Shown: in pieces, positions 20,953 to 58,841 of the stretch
How the letters are laid out: each line of letters opens with the position of its first letter
Numbering within the stretch: position 1 is the stretch's first letter
NCBI GenBank assembly: GCA_017442155.1
Contig: JAFSAU010000051.1
Span: 1 to 64,000 of the forward strand
Direction of reading: 5' to 3'
Source: Clostridia bacterium
GTDB taxonomy: Bacteria > Bacillota > Clostridia > UMGS1883 > UMGS1540
Length of the DNA: 64,000 nucleotides
Notes under the pieces: model-generated
What the model was told of the DNA's origin: nothing
The model's database searches: none
What the model saw: the letters and a program-made list of their open reading frames with translations, nothing else
Program-made: the position numbers and the translations under genes

Positions 20953-21065
20953 ATACACTTCGGGGCAGGGTGCAATTCCCGACCGGCGGTACAGTCCGCG
21001 AGCGCATGGCGCATGAATTGGTGAAATTCCAATACCGACAGTTACAGTCTGGATGAAAGAAGATG
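20953..21065 (+). ncRNA. FMN riboswitch (RFN element)
   Basis: The diagnostic blocks occur in order: TTCGGGGCAGGGTG, AATTCCCGACCGGCGGTA, CAGTCCGCGAGCGC, GGTGAAATTCCAATACCGACA and AGTCTGGATGAAAGAAG. It lies upstream of a riboflavin transporter gene and is followed by a terminator hairpin (21110-21138), so FMN binding should stop transcription. Confidence 0.96.
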
Positions 21066-21109
21066 CATTTGTATAAAACCGTTTTCCGGCTTTATGTTTG
21101 TTTTGCACG

Positions 21110-47618: not shown

Positions 47619-48506
47619 CTATCCTTCTTTTTCCAAAAGGGAAAGAAGAGCCTCTAAATTTTCGTCAGAGTATTCAATTTCTTCGGAATAGGCCCGGGCG
47701 GCGTCAGGTAGAGGGGTAGCTTTCGTCAGTGTAGAAATGAAGATGGCGGCGTGTAAGGCGAAGGCAATCCGCGCCTGATAACGCCCATCGGAAAGACCGC
47801 CGGGAAGATGGCGGCAAAGGAAATAGGCGAACAGCCGGGGGGTGTATATATCCGGTTTTGCTTCGCCTATATTTTGCAGCAGTTTCCGCCAGTCATCATG
47901 CAGGATTTCCAAGGTTTCATAAACGTTTCGCCATTCGTCTGCCGTTTTTTCCGGGAGACAGATTCCGCATCGCGCTTCAATGCGTTCCAGCCGCTCCTGC
48001 ACGGAAAACCCCCGGTCAAAAGCCATGTCCAGAAGAAGCTCCCGGAGGCAGAATACCTGCTGCTCTGCCACGTCCGGCTTCTCCGGTGCATCCCCGGACA
48101 GGCGGATGAATTCCGGCTTTTCCTCCTGAAATAAGATCAGCTCTGCCGCCGCTTCACAGCATAGCCCAAGGCCCAGCTCTACCCGGTCGGAAAAATAATT
48201 CCTGTACCGCGGATGGTCAGAACAAATGTCGCAAAGAGCCTCCTTGCCCAAAGTGCGGATAATAACACAAAGGCCGCTTTGGTCCAGAAAAGGACAGCGA
48301 CCTTTCGCATCCAGAATAAAATGGGCACCATCATCCGTATCGGCAATGCTTTCTGCAAGACGAGTGCCGAAACTACCGGGTACACGGCGGTATTTTTCCA
48401 GTGTCGGGGCGTCCACATCAATTTCCCAGCCTATGCAGCAGCTGTGACGGCATTTGTCCGCGATGCAGGAGAAAGCAGGATAATAGGACGGTACATAGAT
48501 ATTCAT
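47619..48506 (-). CDS. FliB-family flagellin lysine-N-methylase-like protein
   Basis: A 295-residue Cys-rich protein of the FliB family, members of which methylate flagellin lysines in Salmonella. Conserved cysteines occur in CIADKCRHSCC (residues 14-24), GRCPFLDQSGLC, CDICSDHPRYRNYF and LGLCCE, suggesting an iron-sulfur or zinc site. Its start overlaps the aroQ stop by four bases, so it is translated with the aromatic operon. No flagellar gene is in the window; in Clostridia such proteins often occur away from flagellar genes, so another substrate is possible. Confidence 0.83.
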   Translation of the reverse strand: MNIYVPSYYPAFSCIADKCRHSCCIGWEIDVDAPTLEKYRRVPGSFGTRLAESIADTDDGAHFILDAKGRCPFLDQSGLCVIIRTLGKEALCDICSDHPRYRNYFSDRVELGLGLCCEAAAELILFQEEKPEFIRLSGDAPEKPDVAEQQVFCLRELLLDMAFDRGFSVQERLERIEARCGICLPEKTADEWRNVYETLEILHDDWRKLLQNIGEAKPDIYTPRLFAYFLCRHLPGGLSDGRYQARIAFALHAAIFISTLTKATPLPDAARAYSEEIEYSDENLEALLSLLEKEG

Positions 48507-48937
48507 ACGCCGAACTGCTCTTTCAGATAGAGGATTGCCCGGCGGTAGCCTTCAAACCCAAGCCCCATAAAGGTTTTTACACAGGCGAGACGGGCATAGG
48601 AAATCTGGCGAAACTCCTCCCGTTTTGTCACATCCGAAATATGCACCTCCACGGCGGGCAGGGATACGGCCTTGAGCGCGTCCAGAATTGCCACACTGGT
48701 GTGGGTGTAGGCGGCCGGATTTATGACAATGCCGTCCTTTTCGCCCCAGGCCTCCTGAATTTTTGTTACAATTTCCCCTTCATGGTTGGATTGAAAAATT
48801 TCCGCTTCGACCCCCGCTTCCAGGGCGGCAGATTGGATAAAGCTTACTAAATCGGCATAGGTTTCGCGGCCATAGATGTCCGGCTCCCGTTTGCCGAGCA
48901 TATTCAGATTCGGTCCGTTAATAACAAGAATTTTCAT
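48503..48937 (-). CDS. aroQ: Type II 3-dehydroquinate dehydratase
   Basis: Dehydrates 3-dehydroquinate to 3-dehydroshikimate, third step of the shikimate pathway. The 144-residue type II enzyme has NGPNLNMLGKREPDIYG at the N-terminus with the catalytic Tyr, INPAAYTHTSVAI near 73 and VEVHISDVTKREEFR near 97 with the catalytic His. It overlaps the upstream aroE-aroK fusion by 20 bases. Confidence 0.96.
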   Translation of the reverse strand: MKILVINGPNLNMLGKREPDIYGRETYADLVSFIQSAALEAGVEAEIFQSNHEGEIVTKIQEAWGEKDGIVINPAAYTHTSVAILDALKAVSLPAVEVHISDVTKREEFRQISYARLACVKTFMGLGFEGYRRAILYLKEQFGV

Positions 48938-50153
48938 ACAGAGAAAGCACCCTTTCTGTTATATTTTCAGTTTCAAAGCGGTTTTCTATACGGATATCGG
49001 CAAACCGCTCGTATAGGGGCCGGCGCACGGCGTACATTCCGGCCAGATCCCCTTTTTGCGAGAGGGGCCGTCCGTCAGTGGGCAGGGCCTTTATATCGCG
49101 CTGGAGCCATATAATTGTGCCGTTCTGGTGCAGGAGAGGATAATTTTCTTCCCGCGTGACGCATCCCCCGCCGGTGGCAAGCACAAGGCCGCTTTTCATG
49201 CCAAGCTCGGAAAGCACCTCGGTTTCAATGGCACGAAAGCCGGCTTCGCCCACCTTTTCAAAAATTTCGGGAATAGACGTGCCTGCTTTTTCGCGGATGG
49301 CATCATCAGCGTCCACAAACGTGCGGCCCGTTTTCTCTGCCAGAGCCCGGGCAAGGGTGGACTTGCCGGAGCCCGGCATTCCGATGAGCACAATGTTTTT
49401 CTGCCTTTGCCGGAGAGATGCGGTTGTACTTTCAATCAGGTCGTCCGGAAGCGGTTTTTCCCCAAAATATTCCGCACTCTCCTTTGCCTGGGCCACCAGC
49501 ATGGAAAGCCCGTTTTCGTGGGGAATCCCCAACGCTTCTGCCTGCAGGAGAAAAGCCGTTTTGTCCGGATTGTAGATTAAATCCAGTGCGCCGAGGCACT
49601 TGGGAAAATCCGCCAGATTCACCGGTGATACACCCGGATGGGGATACATGCCCACGGGGGTAGTGTTGACGATGAGTTCTGCATCATGGTGGCGGTAGAG
49701 GTTTTCATAATTGTCCGGTCCGTTCCGGGAAATGACGGTGACGGAAGCCGCACCCCGGTCCCGGAGCACAGCGCAGACGGTAACGGACGCACCGCCGCTG
49801 CCGAGCACCAGCACCTTTTTTCCTTCCGGAGAAATCCCGCTTTTGTCCAGCATATAGGAAAATCCGTAATAGTCGGTGTTGTGACCGAACAGGCGACCGT
49901 CCTCTCCCTTCACCACCGTATTGACACTGCCCAGCCGCTGCGCCGTTTCCGACAGGGTGTCCATGAAGGGCACCACGGTTTTTTTGTACGGAATTGTCAC
50001 ATTGATGGCATCGAAGGGTTTTTCCGTCATAAAGGCGGCAACCGCTGCGTTTTCTTTTTCAAAAAGGTCGTAGGCGTAGTCGCCGAGATAGGTATGAATC
50101 TGGGGGGAGTAGCTGTGGGAAAGCTTCTCCCCGAGTAAACCGCACTGTCTCAT
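48918..50153 (-). CDS. aroEK: Shikimate dehydrogenase-shikimate kinase fusion
   Basis: One 411-residue chain carries two consecutive steps. Residues 1-245 are AroE: SHSYSPQIH substrate loop, NVTIPYK with the catalytic Lys57, NTDYYG with Asp94, and the NADP loop LGSGGAS. Residues 252-411 are AroK: P-loop GMPGSGKST at 258-266, DADDAI, the FR-AIE-type GEAGFRAIE and ATGGGCV. The shikimate made by the first half could pass straight to the second. The ATG overlaps the pheA stop (ATGA). Confidence 0.94.
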   Translation of the reverse strand: MRQCGLLGEKLSHSYSPQIHTYLGDYAYDLFEKENAAVAAFMTEKPFDAINVTIPYKKTVVPFMDTLSETAQRLGSVNTVVKGEDGRLFGHNTDYYGFSYMLDKSGISPEGKKVLVLGSGGASVTVCAVLRDRGAASVTVISRNGPDNYENLYRHHDAELIVNTTPVGMYPHPGVSPVNLADFPKCLGALDLIYNPDKTAFLLQAEALGIPHENGLSMLVAQAKESAEYFGEKPLPDDLIESTTASLRQRQKNIVLIGMPGSGKSTLARALAEKTGRTFVDADDAIREKAGTSIPEIFEKVGEAGFRAIETEVLSELGMKSGLVLATGGGCVTREENYPLLHQNGTIIWLQRDIKALPTDGRPLSQKGDLAGMYAVRRPLYERFADIRIENRFETENITERVLSLYENSCY

Positions 50154-51304
50154 ATCATTTCCGAATAACTGCCCAGATACCGGAATTCCTCACTTATCTT
50201 GTCCAGCTCGCAAATCAGCTGGATAAAGGCTTCGGAATACACACTGGTTTCCAGGTCAAAGTAGAACATGAACTCAAAGTTCCGGCTGGGCATGGGACGG
50301 CTTTCCAGCTTGATGAGGTTAATGCCGATGGTATAAAGCCGGGCCAGCACCTTGTAGAGAGCACCGGGCTTATGAGGCAGAATCATCATAATGCTGGTTT
50401 TGTCCGCACCGGGATAGATTTCCAGATTTTTGGAAATGCAGATAAAACGGGTGTAGTTATTGCCGGAGTCCTGCGCCGCCTCGCACAAAACCTTCAGGCC
50501 GTAATGCTGGGCGCAGTAGCGGGAGCTGAGGGCCGCCACGTCCCGGCGGTCAGACTCAGCCACCATTTTAGCGGCAAGGGCGGTATTTTCCACTGTGGTT
50601 ACCTTCACGTCCGGACCAAGGGTTGCCAGAAAGCCTTCACACTGCCGCAGTGCCTGCTCGTGGGAGAAAATTTCTTTTACCCCGGAGAGGTCCACGCCTT
50701 CTTTAACAAGAAGCGTGTGGTCCACCTTGATGCGGACGCTCTTGGTAATGTAGAAATTATGCTCCAGCATCAGGTCGTACACCTTGTTGACGGACCCGGC
50801 GGTGCTGTTTTCTATGGGCAGTACGCCGTAGCGGCAAAGCCCCTTTTCAATTGCGGAAAAAACCTTGTCAAAGGTATCAAAATACATAATGCCGGCATTG
50901 GAAAACAGGCGGTCACATGCAATCTGGGAGTAGGCACCGTCCACGCCCTGGCAGGCAATCATGGCACTTTGCGGAAACTCCTTGTTCGTATTTTCGCTGA
51001 TGGCTTCGGTAATGGTTTTGTGGAGGGCGTTTTCCTTGTCCAGCATTTTTTCCTGATAGGAACGGCTCAGCTCAAAAAGGAGAGAGTACAGTGCACCGGT
51101 ATAGGATGCAAATTTTTCTTCGGATTTGGCCTGTACATCTGCTAGCTTTTCGCGCTCACGTTTTGCATCTAAAACGGGAAGACCGTTTTCCTTTTTGTAG
51201 GCGGCAATGCCTCCCGCCACTTCCATTCTTTCCTGGAACAGACGGACGATTTCGTCGTCTATCCGGTTGATTTCGTCCCGGTATCGGGATAACTTATTTT
51301 CCAT
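50150..51304 (-). CDS. pheA: Bifunctional chorismate mutase-prephenate dehydratase
   Basis: Converts chorismate to prephenate and then phenylpyruvate, the Phe branch. The 384 residues divide into an AroQ-type chorismate mutase (1-90; RYRDEINRIDDEIVRLFQER), the prephenate dehydratase domain (about 113-290; QGVDGAYSQIA, LPIENSTAGSV, and NYTRFICIS with the catalytic Thr), and a C-terminal ACT domain (PGALYKVLARLY and KLESRP) that should bind Phe for feedback inhibition. It is the only mutase in the operon, so it also supplies TyrA. Confidence 0.95.
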   Translation of the reverse strand: MENKLSRYRDEINRIDDEIVRLFQERMEVAGGIAAYKKENGLPVLDAKREREKLADVQAKSEEKFASYTGALYSLLFELSRSYQEKMLDKENALHKTITEAISENTNKEFPQSAMIACQGVDGAYSQIACDRLFSNAGIMYFDTFDKVFSAIEKGLCRYGVLPIENSTAGSVNKVYDLMLEHNFYITKSVRIKVDHTLLVKEGVDLSGVKEIFSHEQALRQCEGFLATLGPDVKVTTVENTALAAKMVAESDRRDVAALSSRYCAQHYGLKVLCEAAQDSGNNYTRFICISKNLEIYPGADKTSIMMILPHKPGALYKVLARLYTIGINLIKLESRPMPSRNFEFMFYFDLETSVYSEAFIQLICELDKISEEFRYLGSYSEMI

Positions 51305-52415
51305 TTTCTTTCTCTCCTTTTTTCCAATTCATATCGTGGTCATACAGCGCGTCCAGCACAGTAAGGGCTGTCACGGCTTCCATTACGGGTACGGCACGGG
51401 GAACGATGCAGGGGTCATGCCGTCCGGTAACAATAAGCGTCTCGGCCGTCTTTTTTGAAAGGCGGATGCTTTCCTGCTCCCGACCGATGGAGGGGGTGGG
51501 CTTTATCGCCGCCCGGAAGACGAGGGGCATCCCCGTGGTGATACCGCCTAAAGTGCCGCCACAGCGGTTAGTGCGGGTTTTCACTGTGCCGTCCGTATCG
51601 TAATAAAACGAATCATTATTTTCACTGCCGTACAGCTCTGCGGCGTCAAAGCCGTTTCCGAATGCAATGCCCCGTACCGCCGGCACACCAAAGACTGCCG
51701 CCGAAAGTCTGCCCTCCATACGGGAAAACATCGGGGTGCCAAGCCCGGCCGGAAGCCCGAAAACAGCGGTTTCAATGATGCCGCCCACGGAATCCGCATT
51801 TTGCCGTGCCCGGTCAATTTCTGCCTGCATTTTTTCGCCCTGCCCGTCATCCCAGACAGGGAAGGGCTTTTGGGCTATAGCGCGGAGTGCGGGCAAAGAA
51901 AGGGGCGTATAGTCGGGTACTTCTCCTTCCACGCCGTGAATGGCGCGGATATGGGAAAAAATTTCGATTCCCTTTTCTGCGAGCATTTGAAGCGCGATGC
52001 CGCCGGCAATGCAGAGAGGGGCCGTCAACCGGCCGGAAAAATGACCGCCGCCGCGCACGTCCTGAAAGCCGCCGTATTTCAGCTCTGCCGTAAGGTCCGC
52101 ATGACCGGGACGGGGCACATCCCGCAGGTTGTCATAATCGGAAGAGCGGGTGTTGGTATTCCGGATCACGGCCATAACGGGTGCACCCGTGGTCACGTTT
52201 TCCAAAAGCCCCGCCAGAAATTCCGGCGCATCGGCCTCCTTCCGCGTAGTAGAAAACCGGTTTTGCCCTGGGGCACGCCGCCCCATAAAGGCGGACAGGG
52301 CTTCCATATCTACCGGAAAGCCTGCCGGAAGCCCGTCGATAATTACGCCGATGGCGTCTGCGTGGGACTGCCCTGCCACAGAAATTCTGATATGCGTTCC
52401 AAAGGTACTGCTCAT
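51294..52415 (-). CDS. aroC: Chorismate synthase
   Basis: Forms chorismate from EPSP with reduced FMN as cofactor. The 373 residues show the family pattern: GQSHADAIGVIIDGLPAG at the start, the RRAPGQNRFST and RNTNTRSSDYDNLRDVPRPGHAD blocks, GGGHFSGRLTAPL, and NRCGGTLGGITTGMP. It overlaps pheA (downstream) by 11 bases and aroA (upstream) by four. Confidence 0.96.
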   Translation of the reverse strand: MSSTFGTHIRISVAGQSHADAIGVIIDGLPAGFPVDMEALSAFMGRRAPGQNRFSTTRKEADAPEFLAGLLENVTTGAPVMAVIRNTNTRSSDYDNLRDVPRPGHADLTAELKYGGFQDVRGGGHFSGRLTAPLCIAGGIALQMLAEKGIEIFSHIRAIHGVEGEVPDYTPLSLPALRAIAQKPFPVWDDGQGEKMQAEIDRARQNADSVGGIIETAVFGLPAGLGTPMFSRMEGRLSAAVFGVPAVRGIAFGNGFDAAELYGSENNDSFYYDTDGTVKTRTNRCGGTLGGITTGMPLVFRAAIKPTPSIGREQESIRLSKKTAETLIVTGRHDPCIVPRAVPVMEAVTALTVLDALYDHDMNWKKGEKENGK

Positions 52416-53686
52416 GGCGTTTCTCTCCTTTCAATCTGACCGCCTAAAGAGGTGAAATGGTCCCAGAAACCGGGATACGATTTATTGACAGCCTGTGCGC
52501 CGCGCACGGTGACCGTTTCACTGCAAAGCATGGATGCCACCGCCGCACTCATGGCAATGCGGTGGTCTCCGGCACTGTCCACCGTGCCGCCGGTGAGAGG
52601 CTTGCCACCCTGAACGACCAGACCGTCCTCCGTTTCCGTGATGCTTGCACCGAGGGCAGTGAGCATCGCCGAAACCGTAGATAGCCGGTCACTTTCTTTT
52701 ATCCGCAGCCGTCCGGCACCGTGGATGCGCGTTGTCCCTTCTGCCGCCGCGGCCGCCACGGCCAGGATAGGCACGAGGTCGGGAATCTGTGCCGCATCAA
52801 TCTCTATTCCTCGCATTGGTGCGCGCTGCGCAGAAAACGAACTGCCACATTGCTGTACGTTGGCTCCGAATTTTTTAAGAAGCTCCACAATCGCTCTGTC
52901 ACCTTGCAGAGAATCCGGATGCAGTCCACTACAGGTAATGCCTTCCCCCAGTGCCCCGGCCACCAGCCAGAAGGCGGCGTTGGACCAGTCACCCTCCACG
53001 GAGAGCAGCTCTGCTTCGGAAAAGGCGGGCGTCTGACCGCCGGGAATGATGTAGGTGTTATTTTCATATGTAAACTGTATGCCGCATTGCCGGAGAACGG
53101 CCTCCGTCATGGCAATATACCGTGCAGATTCGATTTTTCCTGTCAGCTGGAGAGAACTATCCTCGGGAAGGAGCGGGAGCGCAAACAAAAGACCGCTGAT
53201 AAACTGGGAGGAAATATCTGCGGGGAGAGTGTAGCTTCCACCCCGGAGCTGTCCGCCGGTGGCAATCACGTTTTCTGACTCCCAGGAAAGCATCATACCG
53301 TGCGCCTCCAGCGTTTCCCAGAGAGGAGAGAGAGGCCGCTGCGGTAGTCTTCCGGCAAGAACGAGCCGCGCGCTTTTGCCAAGCGCACCCACCACCGGCA
53401 GAAGAAACCGGAGCGTAGAGCCGCTTTCGCCGCAGTCCAGCACAGCAACGCTGTCTTTTTTAGCAGACGGACACACCGAAAAACCTTCCGGTGTCCGGTT
53501 GATCCGGAACCCGAGGGCCGAAAGGCACCGGGCCGTGGCATCAATATCCTCGGAAGAGGTGTTGCATCTGAGGGATACCGGGCTACATGAAAGAGCCGCA
53601 CAAATCAGCAGACGGTGCGCCTGGGATTTGGAGGCAATGCTTTCCACACTGCCCCGAAGCCGCCGGGGCGTAATTTTTACTTCCAT
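52412..53686 (-). CDS. aroA: 3-phosphoshikimate 1-carboxyvinyltransferase (EPSP synthase)
   Basis: Transfers enolpyruvate from PEP to shikimate-3-phosphate. The 424 residues fit the family, with SKSQAHRLLICAAL at the N-terminus carrying the conserved Lys, DCGESGSTLRFLLPV near 84, where the usual Asn-Ala-Gly-Thr of plant and enteric enzymes is replaced by Glu-Ser-Gly-Ser, and RIKESDRL near 330. The GESGS form is that of class-variant enzymes from Gram-positives. Starts five bases after the aroB stop. Confidence 0.94.
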   Translation of the reverse strand: MEVKITPRRLRGSVESIASKSQAHRLLICAALSCSPVSLRCNTSSEDIDATARCLSALGFRINRTPEGFSVCPSAKKDSVAVLDCGESGSTLRFLLPVVGALGKSARLVLAGRLPQRPLSPLWETLEAHGMMLSWESENVIATGGQLRGGSYTLPADISSQFISGLLFALPLLPEDSSLQLTGKIESARYIAMTEAVLRQCGIQFTYENNTYIIPGGQTPAFSEAELLSVEGDWSNAAFWLVAGALGEGITCSGLHPDSLQGDRAIVELLKKFGANVQQCGSSFSAQRAPMRGIEIDAAQIPDLVPILAVAAAAAEGTTRIHGAGRLRIKESDRLSTVSAMLTALGASITETEDGLVVQGGKPLTGGTVDSAGDHRIAMSAAVASMLCSETVTVRGAQAVNKSYPGFWDHFTSLGGQIERRETP

Positions 53687-53690
53687 ATGC

Positions 53691-54746
53691 TCACTCCATT
53701 CCTTTTTTTAAAAACGGCAGAAGGTCCGGTACCGGCAGGGGATACAGCACGCACTTCCCAATCGTTTCCGGCACCACCAGTGTCACCGTATTCCCTTTGC
53801 GTTTTTTGTCAGACAGCATGGCATCGTACAGTGTCTGGGGTGCGTATTCCGTTTTCGTCGGCAAGCCGAAAGCAGTACAGACCTGTTCGATTTCCGCGGC
53901 AACCGCGCCATCACAAAGTCCGGCCTCGGCCGCACTTTTTGCCATGATGACCATTCCGATGGCTACGGCACTCCCGTGTGAGAGGGCAAAATGACTGTTT
54001 TTTTCAATGGCGTGGCCGAAGGTGTGACCGAAATTTAAAAGCTGGCGGAGCCCGGTGTCAAATTCATCTTCGTTTACAATCCGGCTTTTCATTTCAATAC
54101 ATTCCGCAATCACCTGCACCCGGTCAAACAGCAGTCCATTTTCTTTTAGATGTGCAAACAGGGAGGCACTGCCCAAAACGCCGTATTTGATTACCTCGGC
54201 ACAGCCGTCGGCAAATGTGGCATCCGGGAGGGTTTTCAAAACCAGGGGGTCACAGAGGACTGTTTTCGGCTGATAGAAGGCCCCGGCCAGATTTTTCCCG
54301 GCACGGAGGTCGATGGCTGTTTTGCCGCCCACGGAGGAATCCACCATCGCAAGGAGCGTTGTGGGAATCTGCACAAAATCTACGCCCCGGAGAAACGTGG
54401 CCGCCGCAAAGCCGGCTAAATCTCCGACAACACCGCCGCCGAGGGCGATAATAAGGTCACTTCGTGTCAGATGGTTTTCGGCCAGAAATTCAAGAAGTGC
54501 AACATAATTTTCCGCATTTTTTGACGATTCCCCATGGGGAAGCACGAATTTGACGGTGCGGATGCCGGCTTCGGTGAGATGGGCTGTAAGGGCAGTTCCG
54601 TACAGCGCGTCTACCGTGTCATCCGTCACAATGGCGGCGTAGCGGTTCTCCGAGTAGGGTGCAATATAGTCTGCCGCTTTTTCGAGACAGCCCGCTTCGA
54701 GCACTACGTCGTAGGGCCGGGAGGCGGCTACATGAATTTTTTTCAT
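53691..54746 (-). CDS. aroB: 3-dehydroquinate synthase
   Basis: NAD- and metal-dependent cyclisation of DAHP to 3-dehydroquinate, second step of the pathway. The 351 residues contain LPHGESSKN near 70, the nucleotide motif GGGVVGDLAGFAAATFLRG, QIPTTLLAMVDSSVGGKTAID, the metal-binding Glu in GCAEVIKYG, and FGHTFGHAIE with the metal His. Its ATG overlaps the tyrA stop by four bases. Confidence 0.96.
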   Translation of the reverse strand: MKKIHVAASRPYDVVLEAGCLEKAADYIAPYSENRYAAIVTDDTVDALYGTALTAHLTEAGIRTVKFVLPHGESSKNAENYVALLEFLAENHLTRSDLIIALGGGVVGDLAGFAAATFLRGVDFVQIPTTLLAMVDSSVGGKTAIDLRAGKNLAGAFYQPKTVLCDPLVLKTLPDATFADGCAEVIKYGVLGSASLFAHLKENGLLFDRVQVIAECIEMKSRIVNEDEFDTGLRQLLNFGHTFGHAIEKNSHFALSHGSAVAIGMVIMAKSAAEAGLCDGAVAAEIEQVCTAFGLPTKTEYAPQTLYDAMLSDKKRKGNTVTLVVPETIGKCVLYPLPVPDLLPFLKKGME

Positions 54747-55573
54747 CCGTCAATCTCTCCTTTTATCCGCCGTCCGTCGTCTAATAGCTGCCAGAGCTTT
54801 TCGGCGTCTTCGCTTGAAAGGGCATCGCGGTATTCCCGGATGTGGTGCAGAATCCCGTCCAGTTCCTCTAAAAGATGTGTCCGGTTTTCCAGAAACAGCT
54901 CCGTCCACATGTCCGGATTCAGCCAGGCCACGCGGGTGAGGTCTTTATAGCTTCCGGCCGAAAGCCCTTTGTGCATTTTTGCTTCCGGCGATTTTACATA
55001 GGCGTTGGAAACAACGTGGGCCAGCTGGGAGGTAAAGGCAATCCGCTTGTCATGACTGTCTGCATCCGTGACGGAAAAAGAGCCGAATTCCAGTGGAGAA
55101 AGCACCTTTTTAATACTGTCCAGGAGGGCCATATCGTCATACACCGGCGGAACAATGACCATCGGTGCCCCCCGGAACATATCGCTCCGGCTGTACTTAA
55201 AGCCGGAATTGTGCGTGCCGGCCATGGGATGACCGCCCACATACAGAAATCCGTGCTTCTCTGCCAGTGCAAAGCCGGCGTCGCACACCCTCTTTTTTGT
55301 GCCGCAGAAATCAATTACAAACCCTTTTTTCGGAAATGCCGCGGCGTTTTCTTCCATATATTCAATTACGGCTCCGGGATACAGGCACAAAAGTACCAGG
55401 TCGCATTCTGCCAGGTCCGCCGTGGCCAGCGGCCCGTCCACGGCACCGCAGAGAATGGCGTAATCCAGCATTACCCGGTCCCGGTCGGTCGCCAGAACGG
55501 TGTGCCCGGCTTCTTTATAGGCCCGTGCGGCACTGCCGCCGATAAGACCGAGACCAACAATTCCTACTTGCAT
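54743..55573 (-). CDS. tyrA: Prephenate dehydrogenase
   Basis: Oxidative decarboxylation of prephenate to 4-hydroxyphenylpyruvate, the Tyr branch. The 276-residue protein has the Rossmann motif GLGLIGGSAARAY at the N-terminus, the catalytic His region in GGHPMAGTHNSGFKYS near 130 and the C-terminal helical domain. It has no mutase or ACT domain, so Tyr feedback would have to act on the core enzyme or through the leader attenuator. It is second in the operon, 20 bases behind the DAHP synthase. Confidence 0.93.
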   Translation of the reverse strand: MQVGIVGLGLIGGSAARAYKEAGHTVLATDRDRVMLDYAILCGAVDGPLATADLAECDLVLLCLYPGAVIEYMEENAAAFPKKGFVIDFCGTKKRVCDAGFALAEKHGFLYVGGHPMAGTHNSGFKYSRSDMFRGAPMVIVPPVYDDMALLDSIKKVLSPLEFGSFSVTDADSHDKRIAFTSQLAHVVSNAYVKSPEAKMHKGLSAGSYKDLTRVAWLNPDMWTELFLENRTHLLEELDGILHHIREYRDALSSEDAEKLWQLLDDGRRIKGEIDG

Positions 55574-55593: not shown

Positions 55594-56592
55594 TTACAGA
55601 ATTTCACGAAGCTTTCCGATTTTGCCTGCAAGATGCGCAAAAGCGTCCGGGGTCAGTGACTGTGCCCCGTCGCAGAGGGCATGAGCCGGGTCGTTATGCA
55701 CCTCTATCATCAGGCCGTCGGCACCGGCGGCTACGGAAGCCATTGCCATCGGCTCCACCAGGCGGGATTTGCCCGTGGCATGGCTGGGGTCTGCAATCAC
55801 CGGCAGGTGAGACAGCTCATGCAGAAGCGGAATCGCAGAAATATCCATTGTATTTCTCGTATAGGTTTCATAGGTGCGGATGCCGCGTTCGCAAAGGATG
55901 ATGTTGCCGTTTCCTTCGCTCATAATATATTCGGCACTCATCAGAAATTCCTTCAGGGTGTTGGCAAGCCCGCGCTTTAAGAGAATGGGCTTCTTCGTTT
56001 TTCCCAGCTCCTTTAAAAGCTCGAAGTTCTGCATGTTCCGGGCACCTACCTGAATCACGTCCACCTCTTCAAAGAGGGGGAGATGGTTTGCATTCATAAT
56101 TTCGGTGACAATGGGCATTCCGGTTGCCTTTTTGGCTTCCAGCAGGTATTCAATGCCGTCAGCCTTCAGCCCCTGAAAATCATAGGGGGAGGTGCGGGGC
56201 TTGAAAGCACCGCCGCGCAGCAGCGTGGCACCCGCAGCCTTTACACTTTCCGCTACGGCAATCATCTGCTCCCGGGATTCCACCGAGCAGGGGCCGGCGA
56301 TAATGGCAAAGTTACCGCCGCCGATTTTCACATCGCCCACTTCCACCACAGTGTCCTCCGGGTGGAAGGTGCGGTTGCACTGCTTGAAGGGGTCGGACAC
56401 CCGCTTCACAGTGTCCACAATGGCAAGGCTGTCGAGAAGCTCCATGTCAATTTTAGAGGTGTCTCCCACAAGCCCCAGCACGGTATAGTCCACACCGTAG
56501 GAGGCATGGACCTCCACGCCCTGTTCCTCAATCCAGTGGGTCAGATGGTCAATTTGCTCCTGGGTGGTGTTCTTTTTGATAACGGCAATCAT
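55594..56592 (-). CDS. aroF: 3-deoxy-7-phosphoheptulonate (DAHP) synthase, type I-beta
   Basis: Condenses PEP and erythrose-4-phosphate, the committed entry to the pathway. The 332 residues are of the Thermotoga/Bacillus type: an N-terminal ferredoxin-like regulatory domain of about 70 residues (MIAVIKKNT...), then the barrel with [13 protein letters not shown] near 101, [17 protein letters not shown] and DPSHATGK near 265. The regulatory domain in this class can bind Tyr or Phe. It is the first structural gene after the leader; GGAGGAGG precedes the ATG. Confidence 0.95.
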
Positions 56593-56620
56593 TTCGTATT
56601 CCTCCTCCGTTTTAATTCGT

Positions 56621-56654
56621 AAAAAAAGGCTGCACAGAGGGTTTCTGTGCAGCC
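56621..56654 (-). terminator. Attenuator terminator of the aromatic operon
   Basis: On the minus strand GGCTGCACAGA and TCTGTGCAGCC (56654-56644 and 56638-56628) form a perfect 11-bp stem with a 5-base loop and are followed by seven T. It stands between the leader peptide and aroF, where it would block the whole operon unless an upstream structure prevents it. Confidence 0.9.
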
Positions 56655-56681
56655 GGATTTACGACTTTGCGGGCTTAAAAC

Positions 56682-56777
56682 TTACGCCATGCTGTCTGCA
56701 ACACAAAAATCCCTTACTTCGCGGTTTCTAAAGTAAAAGTAAAAGAAATATTCGTATGCAAACGTATTTTTATGCAT
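56682..56777 (-). CDS. Phe/Tyr-rich leader peptide of the aromatic operon
   Basis: A 31-codon frame from ATG 56777 to TAA 56682. Residues 6-16 read FAYEYFFYFYF: nine of eleven are Phe or Tyr, far beyond chance. GGAAGGG lies about ten bases before the ATG. The stop is 28 bases before the terminator stem. Bases 56713-56696 (codons 21-28 of the peptide) can pair with the first arm of the terminator through CTGCA, CA, AAA and CCC segments, giving an antiterminator. Low Phe- or Tyr-tRNA would stall the ribosome at codons 6-16 and leave that segment free; normal translation to the stop would cover it and let the terminator form. Confidence 0.85.
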   Translation of the reverse strand: MHKNTFAYEYFFYFYFRNREVRDFCVADSMA

Positions 56778-56811
56778 GAAACGTTGCCCTTCCTGTATTT
56801 TTATTACATTC

Positions 56812-56840
56812 AGTATACACCCTGCAGTCGGGTTTGTCAA
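56812..56840 (-). promoter_or_regulatory. Promoter of the aromatic operon
   Basis: Minus strand TTGACA (56840-56835) and TATACT (56817-56812), 17-base spacer. Transcription would begin near 56805, about 28 bases before the leader ATG. It is divergent from the promoter at 56873. Confidence 0.9.
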
Positions 56841-56872
56841 GTGTTTTTTAGAAAAAATAAAAATTTTTTTGG

Positions 56873-56901
56873 TTGACAGCGCACGCCGCCCATAGTATAA
56901 T
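56873..56901 (+). promoter_or_regulatory. Promoter for the stalk-domain/parvulin gene
   Basis: TTGACA (56873-56878) and TATAAT (56896-56901), 17-base spacer, 34 bases before the ATG. Confidence 0.88.
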
Positions 56902-56934
56902 AAAAGTATATTTTTTTAAAGGAGACAAACCAGT

Positions 56935-58149
56935 ATGAAAAAACGAATCGGTATACTTTTATGCGCCGCCCTTTTAGGGATACAGGCCTCGGCCGCAGTG
57001 GTGGATTTCCAGGTGGAAAACACAAGCTTTCGGGTTCAGAACGAGGGGGAAGTCACAGACAAAACGCTGGAGGCCGCGCCCTTTGTGAATGACCGGTGGC
57101 GTACCATGGTGCCTGTCCGCGCTATTTCGGAGGCCTTCGGGGCCACGGTGGACTGGAACGGTACACTCCGGGAAGTGATAGTCCGCCTCGGTGGGGTGGA
57201 AATCCGTTTGTATGTGGACAGTACGGAAGCCCTTGTCGGCGGCGAAAAGGTCACACTGGACTGTGCCCCCGTCATTGTGGAGGGCAGAACATTTGTGCCG
57301 CTCCGGTTTGTGAGCGAGGCTCTTTCCTGCAACGTAAACTATGCGGCGGCATCCCGGCATATTGTGATTGACGACACGGAAACGGTGCTCCGGTGCGGAG
57401 ACACCACCTTCTCCTTCGCGGAGCTGGAGACGCTGTACGCCATGTTTCTGGAAGCAAACCGGCCGATGGCAGAAATGTACGGTATGGACGAGACGGCACT
57501 GCAGTCAGCCTGCCTGCAGACAGCAGTGGAAACGGCAACAAAGTATGCCTGGATAAAAACTGCCTTTCCTGCCGCACTTAGTGAATCCTCCCTGCAGGAA
57601 ATTCTGTATTCTGCCGAAAGGGATGGCCTTACAGTGCCTTTGACGGGTATGCGGGATGTTTTGTACGAGAAGCTGTACTATTCCGGCGGGGAAGCGGCGG
57701 CATCTTATATAGAGGAAAGCGCGGACCTGGAAAGTGTGTATACGGCCCGGTACACTTGCGCCAAGCACATTTTAGTGGAAGAGGAAGAAACGGCGAAAGC
57801 GGTTTATGAAAAGGCTGTGGGCGGAGCGGATTTCGATGCGCTGGTTGCCGAGTATAACACGGACCCGGGTATGGAACAAAATCCCAATGGCTATGTATTC
57901 ACTTTCGGCGAAATGGTACCGGAATTTGAAACGGCGGCCTTTGCCGCGGCAGAAAACACGGTTACGGAGCCGGTACAGACGGCCTATGGCTATCACATTA
58001 TCCGCAGAGAAGCTCTGCCTGCTTTTTCGGAAGAAATAAAGGTCCGGGTTATCAACGTTTTGATAAACCAGACCCTGGAACAAACGGCCGCACCCACCCA
58101 GCTCATTGACACCGCTGCGCTGGCGGCACGGCTTGGAATCAGTGAATAA
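56935..58149 (+). CDS. Secreted stalk-domain protein fused to parvulin-type peptidyl-prolyl isomerase
   Basis: A 404-residue exported protein: signal peptide (1-21), a copper-amine-oxidase-N-like stalk domain (about 50-142) with MVPVRAISEAFGATVDW and FVPLRFVSEALSCNV, a helical chaperone-like middle (about 150-270), and a C-terminal parvulin domain (about 275-375) with AKHILVEEEETA, GYVFTFGEMVPEFETAAFA and TAYGYHIIRRE. It resembles PrsA/SurA foldases but lacks a lipobox and would be held by the stalk domain instead. The last 11 bases overlap the convergent thiT gene. Confidence 0.85.
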   Translation: MKKRIGILLCAALLGIQASAAVVDFQVENTSFRVQNEGEVTDKTLEAAPFVNDRWRTMVPVRAISEAFGATVDWNGTLREVIVRLGGVEIRLYVDSTEALVGGEKVTLDCAPVIVEGRTFVPLRFVSEALSCNVNYAAASRHIVIDDTETVLRCGDTTFSFAELETLYAMFLEANRPMAEMYGMDETALQSACLQTAVETATKYAWIKTAFPAALSESSLQEILYSAERDGLTVPLTGMRDVLYEKLYYSGGEAAASYIEESADLESVYTARYTCAKHILVEEEETAKAVYEKAVGGADFDALVAEYNTDPGMEQNPNGYVFTFGEMVPEFETAAFAAAENTVTEPVQTAYGYHIIRREALPAFSEEIKVRVINVLINQTLEQTAAPTQLIDTAALAARLGISE

Positions 58150-58687
58150 GTGTTTCCTTTATAATCCATTTTGCAACGAAGACCGAGAGGACTGCGGTTA
58201 TAATCAGTTCAAACAGCATGTAGCTTCCATTATAAAGGAAGGAATACCATGCCGCACCGACGCCCTCCCAGGCATAGACGCTCCAGATGAGGATTCCGGA
58301 GAGAAAATGACAGAGGAAGCGGAATGCAATGGCTACTATGGCGGCTACAGGTACGGCAAAGGCTTTTTTCGGCAGAAGGCGGTAGATGCCGCCGGCAAGC
58401 CCCAGACCGCCAAAGGCCAGTACATAGTCAAGAAGAATAACGAGACAATAGGAAGCTGCATCCGCCACAGGCGGAGCCGGTATGCCGGTGAGCAGCATAT
58501 TCAGTGCAGCATACACAAGACCCGATAAAATGCCCCAGCGCATCCCGTACAGGAGTGCGACTGTGATAACCGGCAGCATAGAGCCTAAAGTCACACTGCC
58601 CCCGAAGGGTGCATCAAACAGGCGAATCAGCGAAAGTACAACGGAAAGGGCCAGCATAACCCCTGTGACGGTGAGTTTCTTTGTCAT
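58139..58687 (-). CDS. thiT: Thiamine ECF transporter S component
   Basis: ThiT binds thiamine in the membrane and is energised by the shared ECF module. The 182-residue protein has about six helices; TGVMLALSVVLSLIRLF at the N-terminus, FGGSVTLGSMLPVITVALLYGMRWGILSG typical of ThiT (split here by helix), and FRFLCHFLSGILIW later. The ATG at 58687 follows AGGAG. Placement under a TPP riboswitch fixes the substrate as thiamine. Confidence 0.93.
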   Translation of the reverse strand: MTKKLTVTGVMLALSVVLSLIRLFDAPFGGSVTLGSMLPVITVALLYGMRWGILSGLVYAALNMLLTGIPAPPVADAASYCLVILLDYVLAFGGLGLAGGIYRLLPKKAFAVPVAAIVAIAFRFLCHFLSGILIWSVYAWEGVGAAWYSFLYNGSYMLFELIITAVLSVFVAKWIIKETLIH

Positions 58688-58714
58688 GTAAAAATCTCCT
58701 TGTTTACTGTAAAT

Positions 58715-58736
58715 AAAAAGGCTTCCCGAAGGAAGC
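58715..58736 (-). terminator. TPP-riboswitch-controlled terminator
   Basis: GCTTCC-TTCG-GGAAGC hairpin (58736-58721) followed on the minus strand by CTTTTT, placed between the riboswitch and thiT. Confidence 0.85.
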
Positions 58737-58747
58737 ATAAGAGCCGA

Positions 58748-58841
58748 TATACTCCCTACGTTGGTATTACCCAAATCAGGTTAACGGGTCGGAACCTTTG
58801 TCCCCTCTCAGCCGCTTCGGCTCCCCGGATTTATGAGTATA
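58748..58841 (-). ncRNA. TPP riboswitch (THI element)
   Basis: Minus strand shows the conserved blocks GGGGAGC, GCTGAGAG, ACCTGATTTGGGTAATACCA and ACGTAGGGA, closed by the stem GAGTATA/TATACTC turned on this strand. It controls thiT through the terminator at 58715-58736. Confidence 0.96.

Follow-up and report, generated by a model that had tools for sequence, protein, structure and literature searches.

Leader-peptide attenuation is usually linked with Proteobacteria, in which the pheA, pheST, trp and his leaders carry a short frame with many codons for the amino acid that the operon serves, followed by a protector, an antiterminator and a terminator in that order. T-box leaders (RF00230) likewise read tRNA charging and control the same kinds of gene as the leader described here, but unlike it they bind tRNA directly, without translation. 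Three further described systems can be compared with this leader. Upstream of aroF in Acholeplasma, the motif uORFC-13-1 has a frame with Phe codons and a terminator and was proposed to be a Phe attenuator; it is found only in Acholeplasma and unassigned environmental sequences (24 representatives), with a U run that encodes at least one Phe (PMC8632094). Among hisS paralogues in bacilli, regular histidine leader peptides replace the T-box, and such exchanges have been stressed (PMC2965389). The trpB motif RF04312 is composed of two hairpins, the second of which is the terminator, while the antiterminator strand lies in the first (PMC11109978).

The leader that we describe lies upstream of aroF in a clostridial genome, on a 64,000-nt stretch of DNA (the window). 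Compared, from general knowledge, with the proteobacterial attenuators, it has the same kind of product-rich short frame and the same order of elements, but differs from them in its host, which belongs to the Clostridia, in the use of both Phe and Tyr in one leader, and in its association with the whole chorismate pathway together with tyrA and pheA. In contrast to this leader, uORFC-13-1, the nearest system in the literature searched and compared here by its published description, is described with neither a Tyr run nor a link to operon content (PMC8632094). The hisS leaders are, like this one, leader peptides that replace a T-box in Firmicutes, but they encode histidine, serve a tRNA synthetase family and occur in Bacilli (PMC2965389). 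RF04312 shares the two-hairpin layout (PMC11109978), but the similarity is weak (21.4 bits in the window versus a gathering score of 59), and we rejected it as the parent family; its sole match among the relatives, L114, is a gene terminator with tRNA genes. No Rfam leader family matches positions 56400-57000, and this clostridial Phe/Tyr leader family was found neither in Rfam nor in the literature searched, which mostly excludes subscription journals.

The elements of the leader locus are listed here in order of transcription.

56812..56840, minus strand: sigma-70-type promoter, TTGACA-17-TATACT, 11/12 consensus matches
56787..56794, minus strand: leader ribosome binding site AGGAAGGG, 9 nt 5' of the ATG, read directly
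56682..56777, minus strand: leader peptide frame of 31 codons, MHKNTFAYEYFFYFYFRNREVRDFCVADSMA, read directly and supported by homologous frames before aroF
56730..56762, minus strand: control codons 6-16 (5 Phe, 4 Tyr), which are also most of protector region 1
56693..56764, minus strand: protector hairpin 1:2, in which the codon run pairs with the 3' portion of the leader frame (minimum-energy fold, duplex versus shuffles, covariation)
56696..56713, minus strand: region 2, the antiterminator strand, exclusive with both protector and terminator
56639..56652, minus strand: region 3, the 5' arm plus loop of the terminator and partner of region 2
56621..56654, minus strand: intrinsic terminator 3:4 with T7, all 11 pairs of which covary in 36 leaders

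An earlier note on this DNA had named most of these elements, and they were recovered as described. The promoter that it called consensus is near-consensus, with 11/12 matches at 56840-56812, and both hexamers are retained in two congeners of the window genome. The ribosome site and the frame (ATG at 56777, stop codon at 56684-56682) can be read directly, residues 6-16 being F A Y E Y F F Y F Y F, with nine Phe/Tyr among the eleven; when the 300 nt upstream of aroF were shuffled 5000 times with dinucleotides preserved, a density of 9 Phe/Tyr in 12 residues never arose (maximum 8, seen once). The segment 56713-56696 is indeed complementary to the 5' arm and loop of the terminator (56652-56639), and the terminator stem, at 56654-56628, has 11 pairs, 7 of them G-C, followed by T7 and located 35 nt before aroF. 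The leader as a whole folds with z = -5.0, and 0/200 shuffles were equally low. The note's remark that no T-box is present also holds: the window has none that reaches the Rfam gathering score, and a search of 56400-57000 with E values up to 10 found none either.

Downstream of the leader are eight genes, oriented in the same direction and either overlapping or separated by gaps of no more than 20 nt.

55594..56592, minus strand: aroF, DAHP synthase (NF006421, 495 bits; TIGR01361, 404.8 bits)
54743..55573, minus strand: tyrA, prephenate dehydrogenase (best NCBIfam E 7e-42, below the curated cut-off)
53691..54746, minus strand: aroB, 3-dehydroquinate synthase (TIGR01357, 372.9 bits)
52412..53686, minus strand: aroA, EPSP synthase (TIGR01356, 336.8 bits)
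51294..52415, minus strand: aroC, chorismate synthase (NF003793, 395.8 bits)
50150..51304, minus strand: pheA, chorismate mutase-prephenate dehydratase (NF008865, E 2.5e-62, and a chorismate mutase domain, both just below cut-off)
48918..50153, minus strand: aroE-aroK fusion, shikimate dehydrogenase and kinase (residues 4-248 match aroE models, 245-404 shikimate kinase models)
48503..48937, minus strand: aroQ, type II 3-dehydroquinate dehydratase (TIGR01088, 186.1 bits)

The proposal that the leader governs the whole shikimate pathway with tyrA and pheA was upheld by profile searches as far as the gene identities are concerned; its other part, control through one transcript, is suggested by the gene spacing, from which we infer that all eight aro genes are probably transcribed together. 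One further gene (47619-48506, minus strand) overlaps aroQ by 4 nt and may share this transcript; its start, MNIYVPSYYPAFSCIADKCRHSCCIGW, resembles lysine-N-methylase-like cysteine-rich proteins as judged by eye only.

Aromatic frames recur upstream of aroF in relatives of the window genome. We gathered aroF genes from related genomes, together with a scan of 84,980 species' genomes, and counted a frame as aromatic if at least 7 of 12 residues were Phe or Tyr. Such a frame is present in 71/101 distinct aroF upstream regions, compared to 0/101 on the reverse strand and 0.5% of shuffles, and Phe+Tyr ranks first among all 190 residue pairs in these regions; the conservation proposed for the frame is therefore borne out. 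We listed 72 homologous leaders with their terminators. An ATG start is found in 71 of the 72, and an SD-like match (at least 4 of 6) lies 5' of 59. The leader accompanies the downstream aro genes in the operons that could be read.

The RNA pairings recur along with the frame. The duplexes 1:2 and 2:3 are stronger than those formed with a shuffled region 2 (mean z of -3.1 and -2.1, respectively, in 69 leaders), and they use the same part of region 2, which takes in the 3' portion of the frame and extends past it, in 69/69 leaders. In a 36-sequence alignment, the covariation score of 1:2 and 3:4 is 0.398, versus 0.203 for shuffled and no more than 0.172 for slid structures. Because the core of 2:3 is invariant and its loop poorly aligned when 2:3 alone is viewed column by column, we relied on swapped-arm tests for the antiterminator: arms swapped between loci pair worse than cognate arms for 1:2, 2:3 and 3:4, and the cognate advantage persists within two subclasses of terminator sequence. 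The alternative stems coevolve as expected, for 2:3 on the swapped-arm tests. Between the window and its congener L009, the terminator differs by one compensated G-C to A-U pair. At column pair 53:86, U-A is changed to A-U in 11 sequences, in which a Phe codon has become Tyr (TTT to TAT) and the partner has changed to match; peptide and RNA constraints appear to meet at this pair. The comparison shows that protector, antiterminator and terminator recur and coevolve as mutually exclusive stems. Every comparative prediction of the earlier note that we examined was borne out.

Folding of the leader region with the ribosome masked yields the antiterminator or the terminator, depending on where the ribosome stands. 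For the window, 1:2 has 26 expected pairs in the ribosome-free fold. A ribosome stalled on codons 11-16, with transcription only as far as the end of region 3, leaves 12.9 expected pairs in 2:3; moving it to the stop codon yields 10.9 in 3:4. In the homologues, a stalled ribosome leads to 2:3 in 68/68 and a ribosome at the stop to 3:4 in 68/68. Ribosome-free homologue folds are mixed, with 27/68 keeping at least 6 pairs of 2:3, and the protector is favored in part of them only. A leader transcribed through region 4 favors the terminator over the antiterminator at equilibrium; the choice must therefore fall while transcription is under way, which makes the switch a kinetic one, like that of known attenuators.

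The testable features of an attenuator are thus present: a frame with a start and a ribosome site, enrichment of product codons, a terminator, and an antiterminator excluded by the protector. By these features the leader would work mechanistically like the classical attenuators, with a predicted response to the supply of Phe and Tyr. We consider it very probable that the leader controls the aro operon by ribosome-mediated transcription attenuation, with the supply of charged tRNA-Phe and tRNA-Tyr as its signal, in a scheme in which leader translation, stalling and read-through are the predicted steps. RNA polymerase would start near 56805, and a ribosome would translate the leader frame behind it. 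As long as both Phe and Tyr suffice, the ribosome would reach the stop codon at 56684-56682 and cover region 2, the terminator at 56654-56628 would form, and transcription would stop before aroF. If either charged tRNA is short, the ribosome would stall on codons 6-16 and cover region 1, leaving region 2 (56713-56696) free to pair with region 3 (56652-56639) ahead of the synthesis of region 4; with the terminator blocked, aroF-tyrA-aroB-aroA-aroC-pheA-aroE/K-aroQ would be read.

The earlier note had one attenuator sensing both amino acids, and the composition of the leaders agrees: both Phe and Tyr are present in 68/68 aroF leaders. The composition also shifts where tyrA or pheA is missing or moved, while the response to supply itself is the part of that claim that we infer. 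A covariance model built from the aroF leaders (R1) found second copies of the leader in one genus (f44/g61), located before a standalone pheA; these leaders contain 92 Phe and 0 Tyr in 13 loci (for example L194, MNNFAFTSFGFFFAFTSRGI). The aro operon of this genus keeps tyrA and has no prephenate dehydratase. The Tyr share is 0.66 in its aroF leaders, 0.46 in operons with tyrA and pheA (38 loci), and 0.27 in operons with pheA and without tyrA (5 loci, about three lineages), differences that are significant without correction for relatedness and that come from few lineages. Leader content tracks the genes controlled, being mixed, Phe-biased or Phe-only according to operon content, a relation that is new here and offers a natural experiment in how the signal of an attenuator is selected. 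In two loci of genus g61 (L241 and L242), the aroE-aroK protein also includes a region similar to chorismate mutase (pheA profile E about 1e-17), and prephenate dehydratase is encoded elsewhere. No leader was found before a standalone tyrA in genomes whose aro operon lacks tyrA. We rejected a candidate before pheS in G078 (L226), a frame that lacks a clear terminator and overlaps other sequence.

An attenuator that works as described might effectively sense one amino acid only, if one charged tRNA limits first and the other codons are passive. Composition alone cannot show which codon stalls the ribosome, and both kinds of codon contribute to a single RNA stem. However, both residues are retained in every one of the 68 leaders, Phe and Tyr are exchanged for one another with compensated pairing, and mixed leaders stand before tyrA and pheA operons while Phe-only leaders stand before standalone pheA, and we consider this version of the attenuator unlikely.

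A more distant alternative is that the leader RNA is a riboswitch or a protein-binding element and that the aromatic frame merely reflects a U/A-rich stem, TTTTACTTTTACTTT:AAAGTAAAAGTAAA. In its favor, region 2 (AGYGATTTGTGCTGCA) shows strong conservation at the RNA level, which extends to leaders whose stop codon precedes it. A pure RNA stem would, however, permit TTA and TTG equally to TTT and TTC, and the aromatic core has 293 TTT/TTC codons versus 1 TTA/TTG, plus 260 Tyr codons; outside the core, the counts are 48 TTY versus 35 TTR, so that the Phe/Tyr codons are held while flanking codons drift, as had been predicted. The aromatic run also occupies a single frame, which has an ATG and in most cases an SD (aromatic fraction 0.75, compared to 0.20 and 0.15 in the other two frames), its Phe/Tyr content tracks the downstream genes, and no Rfam riboswitch matches 56400-57000. 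Because of the TTY/TTR skew, the confinement to a single frame and the presence of both residues in all 68 leaders, the run is kept as a Phe/Tyr peptide and not merely as a U-rich strand of RNA, and we regard the riboswitch or protein-binding explanation as very improbable. Least probable of all is a direct action of the peptide, whether through ribosome arrest or as a product in trans, in place of charged-tRNA supply: a partly conserved FAAxY segment lies 5' of the aromatic run, but it forms the outer strand of stem 1:2 (TTTGCAGC with GCTGCAAA), residues outside the run drift, and leader length ranges from 16 to 47.

The attenuator is not confined to the genus of the window. R1 matches with aroF leaders are found in many families of the class Clostridia and in a few genomes outside the class but in the same phylum; named carriers with the frame include Sporobacter termitidis DSM 10068, Angelakisella massiliensis, Yanshouia hominis and Emergencia sp. 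Matches with E above about 1e-4 (e.g. L126, L127, L130-L134), mostly without an aromatic frame, were left out. In the aroF tree, all leader rows lie within one supported clade of 92, in which absence is repeated; a simple origin by one gain was rejected, as at least 16 changes are required. Within the aroF clade that excludes the most distant genes, 25/95 rows have neither a recognized leader nor a T-box. The more distant aroF genes L022 and L026, both outside the clade that holds all leaders, carry T-boxes instead; in L026, two T-box matches stand in tandem before aroF, at 868-981 and 1301-1429 (62 and 42 bits).

On balance, we lean towards a widespread clostridial attenuator family that takes the place held by T-boxes in other Clostridia and whose control codons were retuned in evolution to the downstream genes: mixed Phe/Tyr before combined operons, Phe-biased where tyrA is missing, Phe-only at standalone pheA, and Phe-rich at a phenylacetate-CoA ligase gene. 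The spread of the leaders indicates that gut and rumen Clostridia, in which T-boxes are expected, make wide use of leader-peptide attenuation for amino acid genes. The ligase locus (L161 814-1002, G131) has a Phe-rich leader, MFLSVLFVFICLYFYFFAFLFCKSKSVLCCG, with the region 2 and terminator of the family, and a small ACT-like protein is encoded after the ligase; this leader may be linked to Phe synthesis from phenylacetate.

The earlier statement that Phe/Tyr operons of Firmicutes are normally under T-box control fits the host genome in part: it has six T-boxes, one of which is directly upstream of pheS (contig C50:90601-90819, L001, G000; 120.6 bits), and none at the aroF leader. Leader peptide and T-box thus divide the aromatic genes within one genome. 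The specifier of the pheS T-box, read by eye, is UUC (Phe).

Trp is nearly missing from the leaders, with 1 in 737 core codons. Searches of the window's genome turned up neither trpE nor trpC; as this genome is 92% complete, their absence there is weak on its own, and agreement across genomes strengthens it, with trpC not found in 15/18 and trpE not found in 10/13 of the leader-bearing genomes searched. The lack of Trp codons in the leader is in keeping with a pathway whose only end products are Phe and Tyr, and suggests that the carriers, most of which are seemingly unable to make tryptophan, run the chorismate pathway for these two amino acids alone. The three leader-bearing genomes with trp genes all belong to genus g61, in which a T-box precedes trpE in G258 and T-box core sequence also occurs in G157.

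The window has other regulatory elements. About 30 nt from the aro promoter is a perfect (12/12) divergent promoter at 56873-56901 (plus strand), which serves 56935-58149, the gene for a PrsA-like peptidylprolyl isomerase that carries additional sequence at its N terminus. A TPP riboswitch (58736-58837, minus strand, 66.7 bits) precedes the frame of a 211-aa membrane protein (58139-58774), probably a thiamine transporter, and an FMN riboswitch (101.5 bits) lies at 20953-21068 on the plus strand.
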